Notes under the pieces: model-generated | Database searches by the model: none | What the model saw: the letters and a program-made list of their open reading frames with translations, nothing else | Told to the model about the DNA's origin: nothing | Program-made: the position numbers and the translations under genes | Shown: positions 6,431 through 63,159 of the stretch, in pieces | Layout of the letters: the number at the start of each line of letters is the position of its first letter | Position numbering within the stretch: position 1 is the stretch's first letter | Assembly (NCBI RefSeq): GCF_004348995.1 | Contig: NZ_SMKQ01000009.1 | Coordinates: 1 to 64,000 of the forward strand | From: Nonomuraea terrae | Lineage (GTDB): Bacteria; Actinomycetota; Actinomycetes; Streptosporangiales; Streptosporangiaceae | Reading direction: 5' to 3' | DNA length: 64,000 bases

Positions 6431-7779
6431 TGTTCAGCCTCCCGTGCTGTCTCGTCGGCCGCGGCGAAGCCCAGGAGCGTGAGCAAGGTGCGCACCTGGA
6501 CGTTGAGGTGGTTGGCGTAGCACACCAAGGTCGTCAGCTGCCGCGCGGTCACCCACGCGAAGCGGTCGGGGACGTCGAGCGGGAAGTCCTCGCCGACGTC
6601 CACGATCAGGTAGCGGTTGCGAGCGTGGTAGAAGCGCCCGCCCTCCTCCGACTGGACGGTGTCGAGGAGGATCCGCTCGGGTGGGGCCGACAACACCTCG
6701 CCCAGGAACGCCGGCCGGCGGTTCGCGGGCAGGCCCGCGTAGCTGCCGGGCTGGCACTGGACGGTGGGCGCCATCTCGACGGCGTCGAGGCAGCCCGCCT
6801 CGGACCGGGCCTGGACGAGGTAGTGCCGGGTGCCGTCGACGCGGCGCGACAGCAGGGCGACGACCCCGGTGCCGGTCGGCGCCAGCATGGGCTGTGACCA
6901 GCGCTCGACCTCACGGCCGGTGGCCTCCACGTCGACGCCGATGACCGCGAAGTGCCGGTGCTCGCAGTGGTGGATCGACTCGGGGGTGCGCACCCAGTCG
7001 CGGACCTCGCGCAGCGGGATGCGCCGCCGGACGGTGGCGTCCCCGGCCTTGGCCTCGGTGAACCAGCTCAGCAGCTCGCGGTCGTCGTGGTGGGGGCGTT
7101 CTGGACCGCTGGGCAGCCGTGCGGCGACCAGGCCGGACAGCACGCTGCGGGCGTCCATGCCGACCAGGTCGTCACGCCGCAGCAGCGGGCCGAGGTCGTC
7201 CAGCGGCACCCAGTGGTGGCCGGGGAGCACGGGCACGTCGTCGCCCGGGGCGAGCAGGACGGCCATGTTGCGATTGCGCTTGGCGAGGAACCAGGACGCC
7301 TGCTCCGACTGGAGGGAGTCGAACAGGATTCGCCCGCGCCGGCGGCGGGTCGTTCCGAGGAACCTGTCGAGGTAGGGCACCGGCAGGCCGCCGTGGACGC
7401 GGGTGTAGTTGCTCCGGGTGGCCTGCACGGTGGGGGCGAGCTGGGTGCCGCCGGCGTTGCCCGGCTCGACCTTGGCCTGGAACAGGCCGTGCAGCCGACC
7501 GTCGACCTCCTTCAGCAGCAGCCCGAGCACGCCGTACTCCGGCTGGACGACCAGGGGCTGGTCCCAGGCATCGAACTCCAGTGACGAGTCGCGGATCCGG
7601 ATGCCCTCCACGGTGAAGAACCGGCCGCTGCGGTGCCGCAGGTCGCCGGTCTCCGGGTCGGTGCGCCACTCACGCAACGTGTCCAGGGGGACCCGGCGCA
7701 CGCGCAGCGTGTTCTCCCGGCGGCGCTCGGCGAGCCACGCGTCCACCGAGGGCACCTCCAGACGCGCCGGCGCCGTCAC
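6427..7779 (-). CDS. NDP-hexose 2,3-dehydratase (EvaA/TylX3/DnmT-like)
   Basis: A 450-aa protein made of two similar halves, the internal duplication typical of this family. [12 protein letters not shown]...[12 protein letters not shown] in the first half matches VQARSEAGC...[12 protein letters not shown] in the second, and [12 protein letters not shown] matches [12 protein letters not shown]. The family removes the C-2 hydroxyl of NDP-4-keto-6-deoxyglucose to give a 3,4-diketo-2,6-dideoxy sugar. I place the start at GTG 7779, which overlaps the flavoprotein stop by 4 bp (GTGA); the frame stays open to 8364 but that extension is antisense-like, Arg/Pro-rich sequence within the flavoprotein gene. 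It is the first committed step of the aminosugar branch here. Confidence 0.88.
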
Positions 7780-8963
7780 CGCGCGGTCCTGGCCGCCGGA
7801 GGGGTCCAGCCGGCCATGGAGTCCATGAAGCGCCGGGAGACCACCTCGGGCAGGAAGCCGCCGAGCCAGACGCCGCCGTTGCGGGCGGCCACGGCGAGCG
7901 GAGCTCTCATCTCGGCGAACCGGCCCATCCGGCGCGACATGCGGCTCATCCGGATGGTGCGGGGACGCCGGACGCGGTCGTAGCGGGCGAGGCCGGCGCG
8001 CAGCGCGTCCCAGTCGCCGGCGTCGCCGACGGTGTGGGCGAGCTCCACGGCGTCCTCCAGCGCCAGGTTGGCCACGCCCACGTTGGGCGCCATCGGGTGT
8101 GCGGCGTCGCCGACCAGGACGACCCGGCCGCGGGCGAAGCCGTCCAGCGGACGCGGCAGCTCCTCGATCTGGTCGAAGTAGGTGGTCTCGTGGGTCGCCC
8201 GGCACAGCATGAGCGGGATGGGGTCGTGCCAGTCTCCGAACAGCCGAGCCGGCCCGTCCGGGGAGTCGCGGACCGAGCGCCAGAGCGAGGAGCAGGCCAA
8301 GGCGGAGAAGTGCACCCGGTCGCCGGGTAACGGCAGGATCGACAGGCGCAGTCCCGCGCCCCACGTCTCAGCGGCGACGGGCGCCATCCCCGAGGCGGGG
8401 ACGACGGCGCGCCAGCTGACGGCGCCGCAGGAGCGGACCGGAGGGTGGTCCGGGTACAGGCAGCGCCGCACGGCGGACCGGATGCCGTCGGCGCCGACGA
8501 CCAGGTCGGAGGTCAGGGACTCGCCGGCGACGATCAGCTCGGCCGGGGTGGCCGCGTCGCCGGGCCTGATGTCCTCCACGCGAGCTCCGTAGCGCACGGT
8601 CCCCTCCGGCAGCGCCGCCTCCAGCGCCTGTGCCAGGTCGGTGCGCAGCAGGGAGCGGATCGACTCGCCGTAGCGCCGTTCGACGAACTCCAGCCGGCTG
8701 CGGGCGATGAACCTGCCGCTGGGCGCCCGCACGCCGCCTTCCTCCTGGACCACCGAGCACCGCCGCACGCTCTCCCCCACGCCGAGGGCGTTGAGGGCGT
8801 GCAGGCCGTTGGGGGTCAGTCCGATGCCGCCGCCGGTCGTCCGCAGGACGGGGCTCCGCTCGAATACGCGCACGGACCATCCCCGATTGGCCAGACCTAT
8901 CGCAGTGGCGAGGCCGGCGATACCGGCCCCGACGATATGCGCGGTCCGCGTTTTTTTATTCAT
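7776..8963 (-). CDS. FAD-dependent monooxygenase, probable polyprenyl-diphosphate epoxidase
   Basis: A 395-aa flavoprotein of the PHBH/zeaxanthin-epoxidase-like group. It has the Rossmann motif VGAGIAGLATAIGL near the N-terminus, LVVGADGIRSAVR (DG motif) in the middle and VVLVGDAAHPMAPN (GD motif) later, followed by VGVANLALEDAVEL where many relatives have GQG. ATG 8963 is preceded by GGGAG at an 8-nt spacing; the open frame upstream has no such site. Codon 212 is TTA (8330-8328), rare in high-GC actinomycetes. Together with the SHC-like cyclase, UbiA protein and prenyl synthase it suggests terminal epoxidation of a prenyl diphosphate or a prenylated intermediate before cyclisation, as in phenalinolactone-type pathways. 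A late hydroxylase is the alternative. Confidence 0.75.
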   Translation of the reverse strand: MNKKTRTAHIVGAGIAGLATAIGLANRGWSVRVFERSPVLRTTGGGIGLTPNGLHALNALGVGESVRRCSVVQEEGGVRAPSGRFIARSRLEFVERRYGESIRSLLRTDLAQALEAALPEGTVRYGARVEDIRPGDAATPAELIVAGESLTSDLVVGADGIRSAVRRCLYPDHPPVRSCGAVSWRAVVPASGMAPVAAETWGAGLRLSILPLPGDRVHFSALACSSLWRSVRDSPDGPARLFGDWHDPIPLMLCRATHETTYFDQIEELPRPLDGFARGRVVLVGDAAHPMAPNVGVANLALEDAVELAHTVGDAGDWDALRAGLARYDRVRRPRTIRMSRMSRRMGRFAEMRAPLAVAARNGGVWLGGFLPEVVSRRFMDSMAGWTPPAARTAR

Positions 8964-8995
8964 CCGAGAAACTCCCGTTCCCAGCGGCATATCGG

Positions 8996-9009
8996 TATAG
9001 TACTCAGTT
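8996..9009 (+). promoter_or_regulatory. -10 element consistent with a leaderless ubiA-like transcript
   Basis: TATAGT at 8996-9001 ends 8 nt before ATG 9010, and there is no ribosome-binding site in front of that ATG. This spacing would put the transcription start at or next to the A of the start codon, giving a leaderless mRNA, which is common in actinomycetes. The 46-bp gap to the divergent flavoprotein gene is AT-rich for this region. I see no convincing -35 box. Confidence 0.45.
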
Positions 9010-9996
9010 ATGTCTGGTTCTTTCGGTATTCGCGTGCGATTCTTCGCCCATCTGGAGGCGTGCCGACCCGACACAGTTTTCTACGTGGGATTAGTGGGAA
9101 TGAGCGGCGCCATTCTTACCGATCCGGGAGCGGGGCCGGGCAGCCTATTACTCGCCTGGCTCGTCCCCACCCTCGCCTGGATAGCCTCGTTGTACGGCGG
9201 CGACTATTTCGACCGCGAACTCGACGCGAAAGTCAAGCCACACCGCCCGGTACCGTCCGGGCGCATTCCCGCGGCCACCGCCAAATACCTCATGATGGCG
9301 CTGATCGGGACCGGGGCGGTCCTCGCGGCGCTGGCCAATCCGTTCACCTTCCTCCTGGTGATCCCCGCCACCGTCTTCGGCATCGCGTACGCGAAGGTGC
9401 TGAAGGGGCGCGGCCTGTGGGGGAACGTCAGCCGCGGCCTGCCGACCGCGCTGACGCTGCTGTTCGGGTCGATGATGGTGCAGCCGCTGCCGGAGCCCGT
9501 GCTGCTGCCGCTGGCCCTGATGTTCTGGGTGCACGACTCGGGCTCCAACCTGCTGGGGGCGCTGTGCGACCGCGACGGTGACCGCGCCGGCGGCTACTTC
9601 AGCTACCCCGTCAAGCGTGGCGACGACGCGACCGTCCGCGCGCTGACGATGTTCTATCTCGGCTGGGTGTCCATCGGGCTGGGCTGGCCGCTGATCTCGC
9701 CGGCCACGAGCGGCGTCGATCTCCCCGTCTATTACCTCGCCCTTCTTCCGGCCGTGATTCTCGGCGGAATATCGCTCAAGCGGATCCTGGAGGCGCCCCG
9801 GCCCTTTCCGCGCCAGGTCGGGCTGCGCGCCCATGAGATCGTGGTTCTCGACCGGATATTCCTGGGTTCCTTCTTGATGGCGGCCGCCGGGCAGGTGGCC
9901 TTCGCCGTCGCCGTGGCGGCGCCATCGTTGCTTGCCACCGTCGTCGCGCGGCGGCTGATGCGGAGCCGGTACGAGCCGACTCCGCAGGTCAGCTGA
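9010..9996 (+). CDS. UbiA-superfamily membrane prenyltransferase or terpene cyclase
   Basis: A 328-aa polytopic membrane protein (about 8-9 hydrophobic segments). The first Asp-rich motif is GGDYFDRELD (D65, D68, D72) and the second is GALCDRDGDRAGG (D187, D189, D191), both needed for Mg-diphosphate binding in UbiA enzymes. Members either transfer a prenyl group or, in some terpene clusters, act as membrane class I cyclases. No aromatic-acceptor genes lie nearby, so a terpene-cyclase or diphosphate-removal role is plausible but unproven. It is the only + strand gene inside the - strand cluster and its 3' end overlaps the dioxygenase gene tail-to-tail (9989-9996). Codons 28 and 47 are TTA, and the first 150 bases are AT-richer than the rest. 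Confidence 0.8.
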   Translation: MSGSFGIRVRFFAHLEACRPDTVFYVGLVGMSGAILTDPGAGPGSLLLAWLVPTLAWIASLYGGDYFDRELDAKVKPHRPVPSGRIPAATAKYLMMALIGTGAVLAALANPFTFLLVIPATVFGIAYAKVLKGRGLWGNVSRGLPTALTLLFGSMMVQPLPEPVLLPLALMFWVHDSGSNLLGALCDRDGDRAGGYFSYPVKRGDDATVRALTMFYLGWVSIGLGWPLISPATSGVDLPVYYLALLPAVILGGISLKRILEAPRPFPRQVGLRAHEIVVLDRIFLGSFLMAAAGQVAFAVAVAAPSLLATVVARRLMRSRYEPTPQVS

Positions 9997-10840
9997 CGCG
10001 CAGCGCGTTCTTCGGGTCGCCCCCCTTGTACAGGCCGAGCACCAGCTCGTGGGAATAGCCGAGCAGTTCCTGGACGTCTTCCGCCAATTCCGCCGCCACG
10101 CGCGGCGGAACGCTGAGCGTGCTGTTCTCGATCGGGCGCAACCAGGCGACCTGGTAGGCCATCGAGAAGAAGTGCCGCACGTCGGAGTCGGTGGTGTTCG
10201 CGCCGCCGGCGTGGAACAGGTCGGCGCGGAACAGCAGCACGTCGCCCCGGTTCATCTCGGCCTGCACCGCGCCCTCCCAGCCGGGCGCCGCGTCGCTCGC
10301 CAGGCCGCCGTGGCTGTCGAGCACCACCCAGGTGGCCCCGTTGGCGGCGGTGAAGTCCGTCATCGCGGCGATGGCCGTCAACATGATCGGGTGCTCGCCC
10401 ACCGGCATGTGCGGCCAGGCGACCGTGTCGCGGTGCAGCCCCTGCGCGGGCGCTCCGGGCCGGCGCTCGATGTACTCCGTCAGCGTCAGCAGGACGGTGT
10501 CCGACAGCGGCTTGAGCAGCCTGCGGGCACAGCCCAGGATGTCCGGATGGACGACCATCCCGGCGGCGCACGGGATGGCGCCGACGAGCAGGTGCAGCGC
10601 CGTGGCCGTGTCGGGACCCTGGTAGGTGCCGAGCATCGAGCGGGTCGTGTACTCCCACTCCTCCGGGTGGCTGCGCTTGTGCTCGGCGATCTGCCCGAGC
10701 AGGGTGTCGCACTCCTGCTCGGTGTAGGCATCGCAGAGGATGACCGCGCCGCGGTTCTTGACCGCGTCGTCCAGCTCCGCCGGGTCGTAGGGCGGCTTCA
10801 GGCGTGGGATGACGGCCGTGCCCGCGGTCGTTTCTGTCAT
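9989..10840 (-). CDS. Fe(II)/2-oxoglutarate dioxygenase, PhyH family (copy 1)
   Basis: A 283-aa PhyH-type dioxygenase. The facial triad is visible as HRD in GLHRDTVAW and the distal His in ADLFHAGGAN, followed by SDVRHFF, whose Arg can bind 2-oxoglutarate. It ends with LYKGGDPKNALRVS. ATG 10840 has GGAGG 7 nt upstream. It is a tandem paralogue of the next gene upstream, with many identical blocks (DDAVKNRGA, HPEE, CARRLL, DSHGG, LSVPP). It probably hydroxylates, desaturates or epoxidises the terpenoid scaffold. It is the last gene of the long operon, overlapping the end of the opposite ubiA-like gene by 8 bp. Confidence 0.85.
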   Translation of the reverse strand: MTETTAGTAVIPRLKPPYDPAELDDAVKNRGAVILCDAYTEQECDTLLGQIAEHKRSHPEEWEYTTRSMLGTYQGPDTATALHLLVGAIPCAAGMVVHPDILGCARRLLKPLSDTVLLTLTEYIERRPGAPAQGLHRDTVAWPHMPVGEHPIMLTAIAAMTDFTAANGATWVVLDSHGGLASDAAPGWEGAVQAEMNRGDVLLFRADLFHAGGANTTDSDVRHFFSMAYQVAWLRPIENSTLSVPPRVAAELAEDVQELLGYSHELVLGLYKGGDPKNALRVS

Positions 10841-10868: not shown

Positions 10869-11708
10869 TCAGCGGGCGGCCAGCGCGTTGCCGGGGTCTC
10901 CGCCCTTGTAGAGGCCGAGCACGTCTTCCGGCACGTAGCCGAGCAGTTCCCGCAGCTCCTCCGGCAGCTCGGCCGCCATGTCCGGCGGAACGCTCAGCGT
11001 GCCGTTGTCGACCGTACGCAGCCAGCCGACCTGGTATCCGGTCGAGAAGATGTGTCGCACGTCCGAGTCGCTGTGGTTCGCGCCACCGGCGTGGAAGAGG
11101 TCCGCGCGGAACATCAGCGCGTCGCCCTGTCCCATCTCGGCCTGCACCGCGCTGCTCCAGTCCGGCGCCGGATCGGTGGCCGGACCGCCATGGCTGTCGA
11201 GAACCGCCCAGGTCCCGCCGTTCTCGGCGGTGAAGGGGCTCATGGCGGCCATCACCGTGAGTGCGATCGGGTGCTCGCCGACGGGGACGTGCCGCCAGGA
11301 GAAGGTGTCGCGGTGCAGCTCCTGCCGGGGCGCGCCAGGCCGGCGGGCCATGTACTCGGCCACGGTCATCAGCACGGTGCTCGACTTGGGGCGCAGCAGC
11401 CGGCGCGCGCACCCCAGCAGGTCCTCGTGCAGCACCATGGAGGCCGCGCACGGCACCCTTCCGATGAGTGCGTGCAGCGAGGAGGTCGTCTCGCCCTGGA
11501 AACTCGCGAGGACGGAACCGGCCGCGTAGTCGGCCTCCTCCGGATGGGTCCGCAGGAATGCGGACACCTGGGTGAGGAACGTCTCGCACTCCTCGCGCGA
11601 GTACGCCTCGACGAGGATCGCGGCGCCGCGGTTCTTGACCGCGTCGTCCAGCTCCTCCGGGTCGTAGGGGCGCTTGAGTCGCGGGACCGCGCCCGGCTGG
11701 GTACTCAT
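10869..11708 (-). CDS. Fe(II)/2-oxoglutarate dioxygenase, PhyH family (copy 2)
   Basis: A 279-aa PhyH-family protein, clearly paralogous to the downstream copy. Its metal triad is HRD in ELHRDTFSW and the His of ADLFHAGGAN, with SDVRHIF after it. ATG 11708 gives MSTQPGAVPRL; GTG 11717 three codons upstream has GAGG at a 5-nt spacing and may be the true start. It lies 31 bp or less after P450-A in the same operon. Two PhyH enzymes acting at different positions, or consecutively on one carbon, would explain the duplication. Which substrate each takes cannot be told from sequence. Confidence 0.84.
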   Translation of the reverse strand: MSTQPGAVPRLKRPYDPEELDDAVKNRGAAILVEAYSREECETFLTQVSAFLRTHPEEADYAAGSVLASFQGETTSSLHALIGRVPCAASMVLHEDLLGCARRLLRPKSSTVLMTVAEYMARRPGAPRQELHRDTFSWRHVPVGEHPIALTVMAAMSPFTAENGGTWAVLDSHGGPATDPAPDWSSAVQAEMGQGDALMFRADLFHAGGANHSDSDVRHIFSTGYQVGWLRTVDNGTLSVPPDMAAELPEELRELLGYVPEDVLGLYKGGDPGNALAAR

Positions 11709-11739
11709 GCTGTTCACAACGGCCTCTCGGTTCGGATGT

Positions 11740-28081: not shown

Positions 28082-29038
28082 TCATGGTCCCGCCCCACCG
28101 CCCTCGGCCAGCCGCATCGGCATGAAGAACACGACGTCCTCGGTCGCGCCGCTCTCCACCTCGATGTCGTGGAAGCCACAGGCGGACAGCCGTTCCAGCA
28201 CCTGGTCCACCAGGACCTCGGGAACGCTCGCGCCGGAGCTGACACCCACGGAGGTCACCCCGTCGAGCCACCGCTCGTCCAACCGCGACACGTCGGGCAC
28301 GAGGAACGACCGCACGCCGTTGTCACGTGCCACGTCGACCATGCGCTGGGAATTGCTGGAGTTCTCCGAGCCGACCACGAGCACCAGCTCGCAGCGCGCG
28401 GCCAGGGATTTGATCCCGTTCTGCCGGTTCTGACTGGCGTAGCAGATGGTCTCGCTGCTGGGCTCGGCCAGGTTGGGGAACCGCTCGCGTACACGGCTGA
28501 TGATGCCGCTCGTCTCGTCCACCGCGAGCGTCGTCTGGGTCACGTAGCCGACGGCGGTGGCGGGATCCAGGTCCAGCCGGTCGACGTCCTCGGCGGACTC
28601 GACGACGATCGTTCGCTCCGGCGCCTCGCCGCGGATGCCCTCCACCTCTTCGTGGTCGGCGTGGCCGATCAGCAGCAGGACGCGGTCGTCACGCGCGAAG
28701 CGGCGGGCCTGCTGATGCACCTTGGACACCAGAGGACAGGTCGCGTCGACGACGTCCAGCCGGCGGCTCTCGGCGCGGGCCCGCACCTGCGGGGAGACGC
28801 CGTGGGCGGAGAAGATGCAGATCGCGCCTTCGGGGACCTCCGTCTCGGAGTCGACGAACCGGGCGCCCCTGGCCTCCAGCCGGTCGACGACGTGGCGGTT
28901 GTGCACGATCTCCTTGCGCACGTAGACCGGGGGCCCGTAGAGGTCCAGGGCCCGCTCCACCATCGCGATGGCGCGCTCGACGCCCGCGCAGAAACCTCGT
29001 GGCTGGGCTAGGACGACCTTCTTCCGTGCTGAAGCCAT
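28082..29038 (-). CDS. ispH: 4-hydroxy-3-methylbut-2-enyl diphosphate reductase (MEP pathway)
   Basis: A 318-aa IspH (LytB), the [4Fe-4S] enzyme that turns HMBPP into IPP and DMAPP. The three cluster Cys are in [15 protein letters not shown] and [19 protein letters not shown] and FSAHGVSP carry the conserved His residues, and SSNSQRM follows. ATG 29038 starts [18 protein letters not shown] 29044 two codons earlier is possible. Neither has a good ribosome-binding site, so the mRNA may be leaderless or weakly translated. It is the first gene of the - strand unit ispH-dxs-ispG-P450-F-P450-E-ferredoxin and marks the right edge of the cluster. Confidence 0.96.
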
Positions 29039-62181: not shown

Positions 62182-63159
62182 TCAAGGCGTGCTCTCCTCG
62201 GTGTCTACCAACAGGTGCCGGGGCGCGCTCCCCGGCGGGCGATGCGCCAGGCCGACGGCGTCGGCCAGGCGCTGGAAGCCGCGGGCCCTCAGCAGGTCCT
62301 CCAGCTCGCGTTCGATGCGCAGGCAGGCGTACGGGTCGTGGAACAGCGCCGTGCCGACGCCGACCACGCAGGCGCCCGCGAGGACGAGCTGGAAGGCGTC
62401 GCGGCCGCTCATCACGCCGCCGATGCCGATGAGCGGCACCCCGGGGAGGGCGGCGTGGACCTGCCAGACACACCGTACGGCCAGCGGCAGGATGGCCGGC
62501 CCCGACAGGCCGCCGGTGACGGCGGCGAGCGAGGGCCGCAGCGCCTCGGTGTCGATGGCCATGCCCAGCGGATTGTTGATCATGGACAGCGCGTCGGCCC
62601 CGGCGTCCACGCAGGCCCGCGCGACGGCGACGATGTCGGCCACGTCGGGCGCGAGCTTGGCGACGACCGGCACGTCGTAGCGCATGATCGAGCGTACGGA
62701 GGCGATCACCTCGGCGGCGGCGCTGCCCTCGCGCGCGAACACGCGCCCGCGATCCTCCATGTTCGGGCAGGAAAGGTTGACCTCCAGCGCGGTCACCCCG
62801 GGCGCGTCGGCGAGCCTGCGGGCCAGCTCGGAGTACTCGGCGACGGTGCCGCCGCCGATCGAGACGATGGTCTTGATGCCGCGCTGGGCCAGCCAGGGCA
62901 GCTCGCGCTCCAGGAACGCGTCGATGCCCGGCCCCTGCAGCCCGACGGCGTTGAGCATGCCGGAGGGCGTCTCGGCCATGCGCGGCGTGGGCCGGCCGGC
63001 GCGCGGCGCCATGGTGATCGAGCGGGTGGTCAGCGCGCCGAGCCGGTGCAGGTCGAAGAACTGCGCGAGCTCCCGGCCGGAGGAGGCGCAGCCGGCGGCC
63101 GTGGTGACCGGGTTCGCCAGCTCCACGTGCGCCAGAAATGTCCTCATATCAACCGACAT
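62182..63159 (-). CDS. pyrD: Dihydroorotate dehydrogenase (class 1B-like)
   Basis: A 325-aa FMN enzyme. LANPVTTAAGCASSGRELAQ, VGLQGPGIDAFLE, EVNLSCPNMEDRG with the catalytic Cys of class 1 enzymes, NNPLGMAID and GIGGVMSGRDAFQLVLAG. Co-encoded with pyrK, so probably the NAD-dependent 1B heterotetramer. ATG 63159 overlaps pyrK by 11 bp and has GGAGG about 10 nt upstream; ATG 63147 is the alternative. Confidence 0.94.
   Translation of the reverse strand: MSVDMRTFLAHVELANPVTTAAGCASSGRELAQFFDLHRLGALTTRSITMAPRAGRPTPRMAETPSGMLNAVGLQGPGIDAFLERELPWLAQRGIKTIVSIGGGTVAEYSELARRLADAPGVTALEVNLSCPNMEDRGRVFAREGSAAAEVIASVRSIMRYDVPVVAKLAPDVADIVAVARACVDAGADALSMINNPLGMAIDTEALRPSLAAVTGGLSGPAILPLAVRCVWQVHAALPGVPLIGIGGVMSGRDAFQLVLAGACVVGVGTALFHDPYACLRIERELEDLLRARGFQRLADAVGLAHRPPGSAPRHLLVDTEESTP

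Follow-up and report, generated by a model that had tools for sequence, protein, structure and literature searches.

Actinobacterial genes without a leader are often of the TA-led type, in which a TANNNT hexamer lies about 12 bp before the start codon and no Shine-Dalgarno (SD) sequence is present; such genes average 19.2% of all genes and occur in 86 of 89 actinobacterial genomes (PMC3160421, available excerpts). Genes with the leucine codon TTA are known as bldA-dependent from Streptomyces, and Chater and Chandra consider it possible that bldA is of developmental significance only within the Streptomycineae; according to the accessible part of their text, TTA codons outside this group show no bias toward gene starts and sometimes occur in conserved, growth-associated genes (PMC4255298). 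A third relevant type is the bidirectional promoter with a symmetric -10 element, where -11A and -7T are reciprocal on the two strands and 18 bp is the commonest spacing between the two transcription starts (PMC10268837, in excerpt).

The window, i.e. the whole stretch of 64,000 nucleotides analysed, has a GC content of 71.8% and starts where its contig starts, in a source genome of 9.69 Mb and 469 contigs. It carries a ubiA-like gene at 9010–9996 on the forward strand (328 aa, ATG start, predicted leaderless), the product of which matches the Pfam UbiA profile (PF01040) with an E value of 5.4e-32. The profile match and the Asp motifs point to membership in the UbiA prenyltransferase family: the protein has the Asp-rich stretches DYFDRELD and DRDGD, which we take to be the family motif, at both usual places, and D65, D68, D72, D187 and D191 are invariant in all seven aligned UbiA sequences, the window protein among them. 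The start codon at 9010 is supported by the N terminus, which aligns without a gap, from the Met, to the Actinokineospora fastidiosa orthologue (72% identity), and it is the earliest possible one because an in-frame TAG at 8998–9000 precedes it. Translation may alternatively start at the in-frame GTG at 9034, which is still upstream of both TTA codons discussed below. A search for relatives of UbiA on plasmids gave one weak match to chlG.

Upstream of ubiA, the hexamer TATAGT at 8996–9001 on the forward strand, in which the in-frame TAG is contained, represents the predicted -10 element, its first T lying 14 nt before the ATG and 8 nt separating it from the start codon. No SD was recognised in the sequence ahead of ATG 9010, and a consensus scan requiring a -35 element over 8800–10100 found none. 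For comparison, we used a sample of 77 stretches of the same genome (1,446,122 bases) with 1311 genes predicted by our own simple script, leaving out stretch L066, which overlaps L009, as well as three stretches shorter than 3000 bases; genes truncated at the border of a stretch were lost from the sample. The script put the start of ubiA at 9100, whereas the tallies of TTA genes given below use 9010; raw script starts were used for codon frequencies, the near-start rise, TANNNT counts, divergent-neighbour counts, the start-GC rank and the GC3 classes. Among 431 SD-less first-in-operon-like genes of this 1.45-Mb sample, a TANNNT hexamer ended at a distance of 6 nt from the start in 35 cases, of 7 nt in 22 and of 8 nt in 12, at a background of 1.53 per spacing as measured at 10–39 nt before starts. 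Genes with an SD showed no peak at these spacings (2, 2 and 1 of 347), and 391 operon-internal genes gave 11, 10 and 7 cases, so the operon classes have to be regarded as rough. The peak in the sampled genome corresponds to the TA-led signal already described for Actinobacteria (PMC3160421, in excerpt). Because it lies at 6–8 nt before SD-less starts, the leaderless start is well supported, and ubiA is likely leaderless. The original prediction of a probable leaderless start, with TATAGT 8 nt ahead of the ATG and no ribosome-binding site, was thus correct in its coordinates and is backed by the pile-up in the sampled part of the genome.

The spacing of 8 nt is at the edge of the peak and, given the background, about 87% of the TANNNT sites at this spacing are above background and about 13% are expected by chance. 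This share of chance sites, the lack of a -35 element and the SD-like stretches ahead of the start in the A. fastidiosa and Amycolatopsis orthologues would fit transcription of ubiA with a leader, from a more distant upstream site within the divergent gene, with TATAGT present by chance. We consider this unlikely, since neither ATG 9010 nor GTG 9034 is preceded by an SD as far as can be read from the sequence, and since the hexamer belongs to the spacing class that marks leaderless genes in this genome. The leaderless start itself is not conserved, because both named orthologues have SD-like stretches. A special openness of the mRNA at the ubiA start was also considered and rejected: with z values of 0.17 and 0.02 for the first 60 and 120 nt, it is not unusually unstructured.

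The divergent gene is a FAD monooxygenase gene (PF01494) at 7776–8963 on the minus strand, coding for 395 aa from an ATG at 8963 with GGAG 8 nt ahead of it. A suitably positioned hexamer, TACTAT at 8997–9002 on the minus strand, possibly represents its -10 element and overlaps that of ubiA in the symmetric TATAGTA. The predicted transcription starts at 9008 (ubiA) and 8990 (FAD monooxygenase) are 18 bp apart; there is an A at 8990 on the minus strand and a T at 9008, for which reason the real start of ubiA may be G9007 or A9010. The reciprocal -10 geometry at 8996–9002 needs one base beyond TATAGT, and the following A is present in 102 of 1039 intergenic TANNNT hexamers. Among SD-less leaderless-like genes, it was found in 3 of 28 that have a close divergent neighbour, in 2 of 19 that have none, and in 1 of 22 whose divergent neighbour is distant. 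Because just one extra base is needed, and this base also occurs elsewhere, a promoter shared by ubiA and the FAD monooxygenase gene is offered as a suggestion only. The two genes are divergent in A. fastidiosa as well, while the FAD monooxygenase gene of Amycolatopsis sp. A133 (UbiA 46%) follows that for UbiA on the same strand, so the layout is not general. Elsewhere in the same genome (stretch L065, around 6945–6967), we observed a divergent pair in which both genes look leaderless and the -10 hexamers overlap by two bases.

The two TTA codons of ubiA are codon 28 (9091–9093) and codon 47 (9148–9150), both on the forward strand, and a further one was found as codon 212 of the FAD monooxygenase gene (8328–8330, minus strand). 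Apart from these three, the 57 predicted genes of the window contain no TTA codon, and all three are confined to two adjacent divergent genes at 7776–9996. In the sample, TTA is the rarest leucine codon with 0.21 per 1000 codons in the 1311 predicted genes; 80 of these contain at least one TTA, four contain at least two, and two genes, ubiA being one of them, have two within the first 50 codons. TTA genes amount to 2 of 57 in the window (3.5 expected), and a recount over the cluster surrounding ubiA gave 2 of 27 (1.7 expected), so that neither is enriched; they are about equally common in the rest of the sample and in the cluster. Adjacent gene pairs both containing TTA occurred 11 times in 1234 (4.6 expected), a mild clustering which is unexplained. 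One TTA gene of the sample is recF (6932–8176 of stretch L077, TTA at codon 277), as identified by TIGR00611 with 263 bits at a cut-off of 172; it is the one clear core-gene case among 30 proteins scanned from the 80 TTA genes. Neither TTA codon of ubiA is shared by any of six homologues, consisting of the A. fastidiosa and Amycolatopsis proteins and four more distant relatives (L005–L008): codon 28 corresponds to Leu (CTG or CTC) in these four relatives, to Thr in A. fastidiosa and to Ile in Amycolatopsis, and codon 47 to a non-leucine residue in all six, with L006 having one TTA elsewhere.

Within the first 25 codons, the TTA frequency rises 9-fold, from 0.12 to 1.11 per 1000, vs. a 2.0- to 4.3-fold rise for eleven comparison codons. 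When scaled to intergenic triplet frequency, the rise for TTA (0.37) is within the range of the comparison codons (0.19–0.68). There may be a TTA-specific bias toward gene starts, and wrong script starts would inflate the 9-fold figure. The 237 operon-internal genes with an SD, which have the safest starts, contain nine TTAs, two of them in codons 1–25 and three in codons 26–50, which are too few to decide this.

Leucine tRNAs normally have a long variable arm. The host tRNA-Leu(UAA), located at 28158–28231 of contig C66, is a 74-nt tRNA with a 5-nt variable loop and thus a short variable arm, as recognised with a covariance model built from three Leu tRNAs of the host and with ARAGORN. There were 63 RF00005 matches above the cut-off in the genome, all of which were given an anticodon by ARAGORN, and one of them has TAA. 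In the 469-contig assembly, which may have gaps, no long-arm tRNA-Leu(UAA) was found, either with a pattern or with a model built from three long-arm Leu tRNAs of the host. Three DNA patterns for the canonical long-arm form gave no result in this genome, missing the host tRNA because of its different D arm and short variable arm. A long-arm pattern applied to 39 genomes of the genus, the host included, gave nothing that looked like a long-arm tRNA-Leu(UAA), with the matches not individually checked, and a pattern match in L079 was rejected as it is not a tRNA. The tRNA-Leu(CAA) of the host (contig C414, L117) is short-armed too, and six closely spaced tRNA-like genes (Ala, Leu-aag, Glu, Arg, Tyr and one odd), some of them degenerate, at 10168–10663 of contig C55 (L120) resemble a tRNA array of the mobile or phage type. 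Within the window, ARAGORN called two tRNAs, at 11561–11652 and 62253–62330, which are absent from the RF00005 matches and probably false.

To survey the class, we searched 296 genomes with a pattern admitting both arm forms, which matched 149 of them, a missing match in the other 147 not being equivalent to absence. Counted by hand, the short form (match of 44–47 nt) is present in 110 of the matching genomes and the long form (52–56 nt) in 39. In the host's own family, 11 of 28 genomes matched, all with the short form. In family f18, which is represented by a single genus with genomes of 5.8–11 Mb, 26 of 27 have the long form; the sequence resembles bldA, and f18 is therefore presumably the Streptomycetaceae. 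The remaining 13 long-arm genomes are spread over nine families. ARAGORN confirmed the short-arm tRNA-Leu(UAA) in all 12 loci tested; A. fastidiosa, Amycolatopsis sp. A133 and the genomes G031 and G079 possess it as well, while G235 gave no pattern match. A limited search of open-access literature by title and abstract returned no report of a short-arm tRNA-Leu(UAA) pattern across actinomycetes, the nearest case found being a tRNA-Leu(TAG) with a short loop from tRNA clusters of mycobacteria (PMC6582537, in excerpt).

The original prediction was right about the positions and the rarity of the TTA codons in ubiA, from which it had proposed that the gene depends on bldA and that the membrane enzyme, and hence the product, would be tied to development. 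An in-frame TTA, as expected of a bldA-controlled gene, is indeed present in ubiA. Yet the TTA reader of the host is not of the long-arm bldA type, TTA is not confined to auxiliary genes in view of recF, the codons are kept in 0 of 6 homologues, and the cluster shows no enrichment; neither the dependence on bldA nor the tie to development is supported by this evidence, and, as far as the sequences indicate, bldA control of ubiA is not supported by what was tested. Conservation is a soft criterion, because TTA codons are often not kept in Streptomyces either (PMC4255298, in excerpt). Our sample agrees with the accessible part of the same work on growth-associated genes, since recF has a TTA, whereas there is no clear agreement on start bias, TTA crowding at gene starts here.

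By analogy with bldA, the TTAs might still act as a throttle if scarce charged tRNA-Leu(UAA), albeit of another form, delayed UbiA synthesis to late growth. The rarity of TTA, its concentration near gene starts and the single tRNA gene found for it would fit this, and a translational lever could stand in for a regulator, because none was recognised among the 24 proteins scanned from 1–30.3 kb, in a cluster that may be cut off at the contig start. We regard such a delay as doubtful, since the TTAs are absent at these positions in the six homologues, TTA also occurs in recF and is not enriched in the cluster, the reader tRNA is not bldA-like, and the role of bldA is doubted outside the Streptomycineae (PMC4255298, available excerpts). 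It is equally doubtful that TTA reading would differ in kind between the long-arm, bldA-type form of Streptomyces-like bacteria and the short-arm form of most other matching Actinomycetes, with a bldA-independent brake on TTA genes like ubiA in the latter, as the crowding of TTA at gene starts in this short-arm host could suggest; if true, a brake in short-arm hosts would run contrary to the published limit at the Streptomycineae.

The TTA codons are probably due to the local base composition. The probability of at least two TTAs among the six near-start leucines of ubiA is 6e-5 with the TTA rate of the genome, 6e-4 with its near-start rate, and 0.16–0.19 given the local composition of ubiA; the two codons are rare vs. 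the genome and not rare vs. their surroundings. The stretch at 8951–9100 is an AT-rich island, with 49.3% GC the lowest-GC 150-nt stretch of the window when scanned in 10-nt steps, and codon 28 lies within it and codon 47 just past it. The region from -60 to +150 of ubiA has a GC content of 0.548, which is as low in 1 of 1202 sampled starts, a rank biased by the raw script starts; 0.63% of all 210-nt segments of the sample are as AT-rich. The GC3 value of ubiA is 0.61 in codons 2–50 and 0.90 in the remainder; its rank as the lowest of 1052 genes for the first 50 codons is biased by the script starts and was not relied on. Across the sample, near-start TTA depends weakly on near-start GC3, occurring in 2 of 27 genes with GC3 up to 0.75 and in 10 of 246, 24 of 661 and 7 of 283 genes of the successively higher classes. 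The AT-richness is not confined to the ubiA coding sequence, because the promoter and the start of the divergent gene share it. Selection of rare codons 1–50 for slowing translation during insertion of the first membrane helix would agree with the low near-start GC3 and with a product from an integral membrane family of presumed membrane topology, but is very improbable given that the close A. fastidiosa orthologue lacks this feature (first-50 GC3 0.88), that the AT-rich stretch covers the promoter too, and that the divergent gene has a first-50 GC3 of 0.76.

The surroundings from about 1 to 30 kb represent a glycosylated-terpenoid cluster, as judged from the predicted genes: an activator-dependent glycosyltransferase, an MFS transporter, deoxyaminosugar genes, the FAD monooxygenase, UbiA, a PhyH-like protein, six P450s, a squalene-hopene-cyclase-like protein, polyprenyl synthetase, Dxs, IspG and IspH. 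Because no contig sequence precedes the window, the cluster may be cut off at this end. The glycosyltransferase (134–1405) matches the activator-dependent family TIGR04516 above the cut-off; its P450-like activator may be among the cluster P450s, presumably as in the EryCIII/DesVII systems. A 19.5-kb region of A. fastidiosa keeps IspG, Dxs, IspH, polyprenyl synthetase, PhyH, four P450s and the cyclase. UbiA matches were obtained in 4 of 250 genomes, the host included, and were absent from the 20 same-genus genomes listed; the four further relatives (L005–L008, 44–47%) are from three genomes of the window's family. L005 and L006 adjoin a cyclase-like gene and L007 and L008 a polyprenyl synthetase gene. 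Such neighbourhoods hint at a terpene-cyclising or prenyl-transferring step in diterpenoid pathways. A small ORF at 10978–11526 was rejected as a gene, having no Pfam match and an A. fastidiosa counterpart that overlaps an opposite-strand PhyH-like gene; the script prefers 10869–11717 on the minus strand, which has no NCBIfam match at 1e-10 and contains the first of the two ARAGORN tRNAs mentioned above.

Taken together, ubiA is in our view probably an ordinary leaderless biosynthetic gene, the TTAs of which are a compositional by-product read by a short-arm tRNA-Leu(UAA) and not a bldA-type switch. RNA polymerase would recognise TATAGT at 8996–9001 and begin transcription no more than about 3 nt from ATG 9010, so that the ribosome would bind to the 5' AUG itself and need no SD pairing. 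The symmetric TATAGTA might also serve the FAD monooxygenase gene on the other strand, the divergent pair being driven from one AT-rich promoter island. The two TTAs would have arisen as a by-product of this island, where the first 50 codons have third positions relaxed to about 61% GC, and would be read by the normal short-arm tRNA, perhaps with some slowing. An attractive but weakly founded connection of a terpenoid cluster to development is thereby removed, and finding the TTA-reading tRNA, counting TTA over a large part of the genome and comparing the local base composition provides a way to check such claims. In a Streptomyces chassis, the TTAs of both ubiA and the FAD monooxygenase gene would probably come under the control of bldA; therefore, they should be recoded for heterologous expression.

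Compared to the described systems, ubiA is closest to the TA-led actinobacterial genes, sharing the TANNNT hexamer and the lack of an SD without a substantial difference, its hexamer distance being at the long end (PMC3160421, in excerpt). Like the bidirectional promoters in the accessible part of PMC10268837, the region ahead of ubiA has putative -10 hexamers overlapping on both strands and starts 18 bp apart, but here these are predicted from sequence geometry, and the ubiA side is leaderless. The nearest solved sequence of the UbiA family is 6m31, a digeranylgeranylglyceryl phosphate synthase, which the window protein matches at an E value of 7e-13; unlike in that system, ubiA adjoins squalene-hopene-cyclase-like, polyprenyl synthetase and P450 genes. 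With the bldA-dependent TTA genes of Streptomyces, ubiA has in common that a secondary-metabolism gene of a high-GC actinomycete contains TTA (PMC4255298 and PMC4932002, available excerpts), whereas it differs in a host presumably of another family with a short-arm tRNA-Leu(UAA) and a TTA in recF, in its unconserved codons, and in that no link to a regulator was seen.
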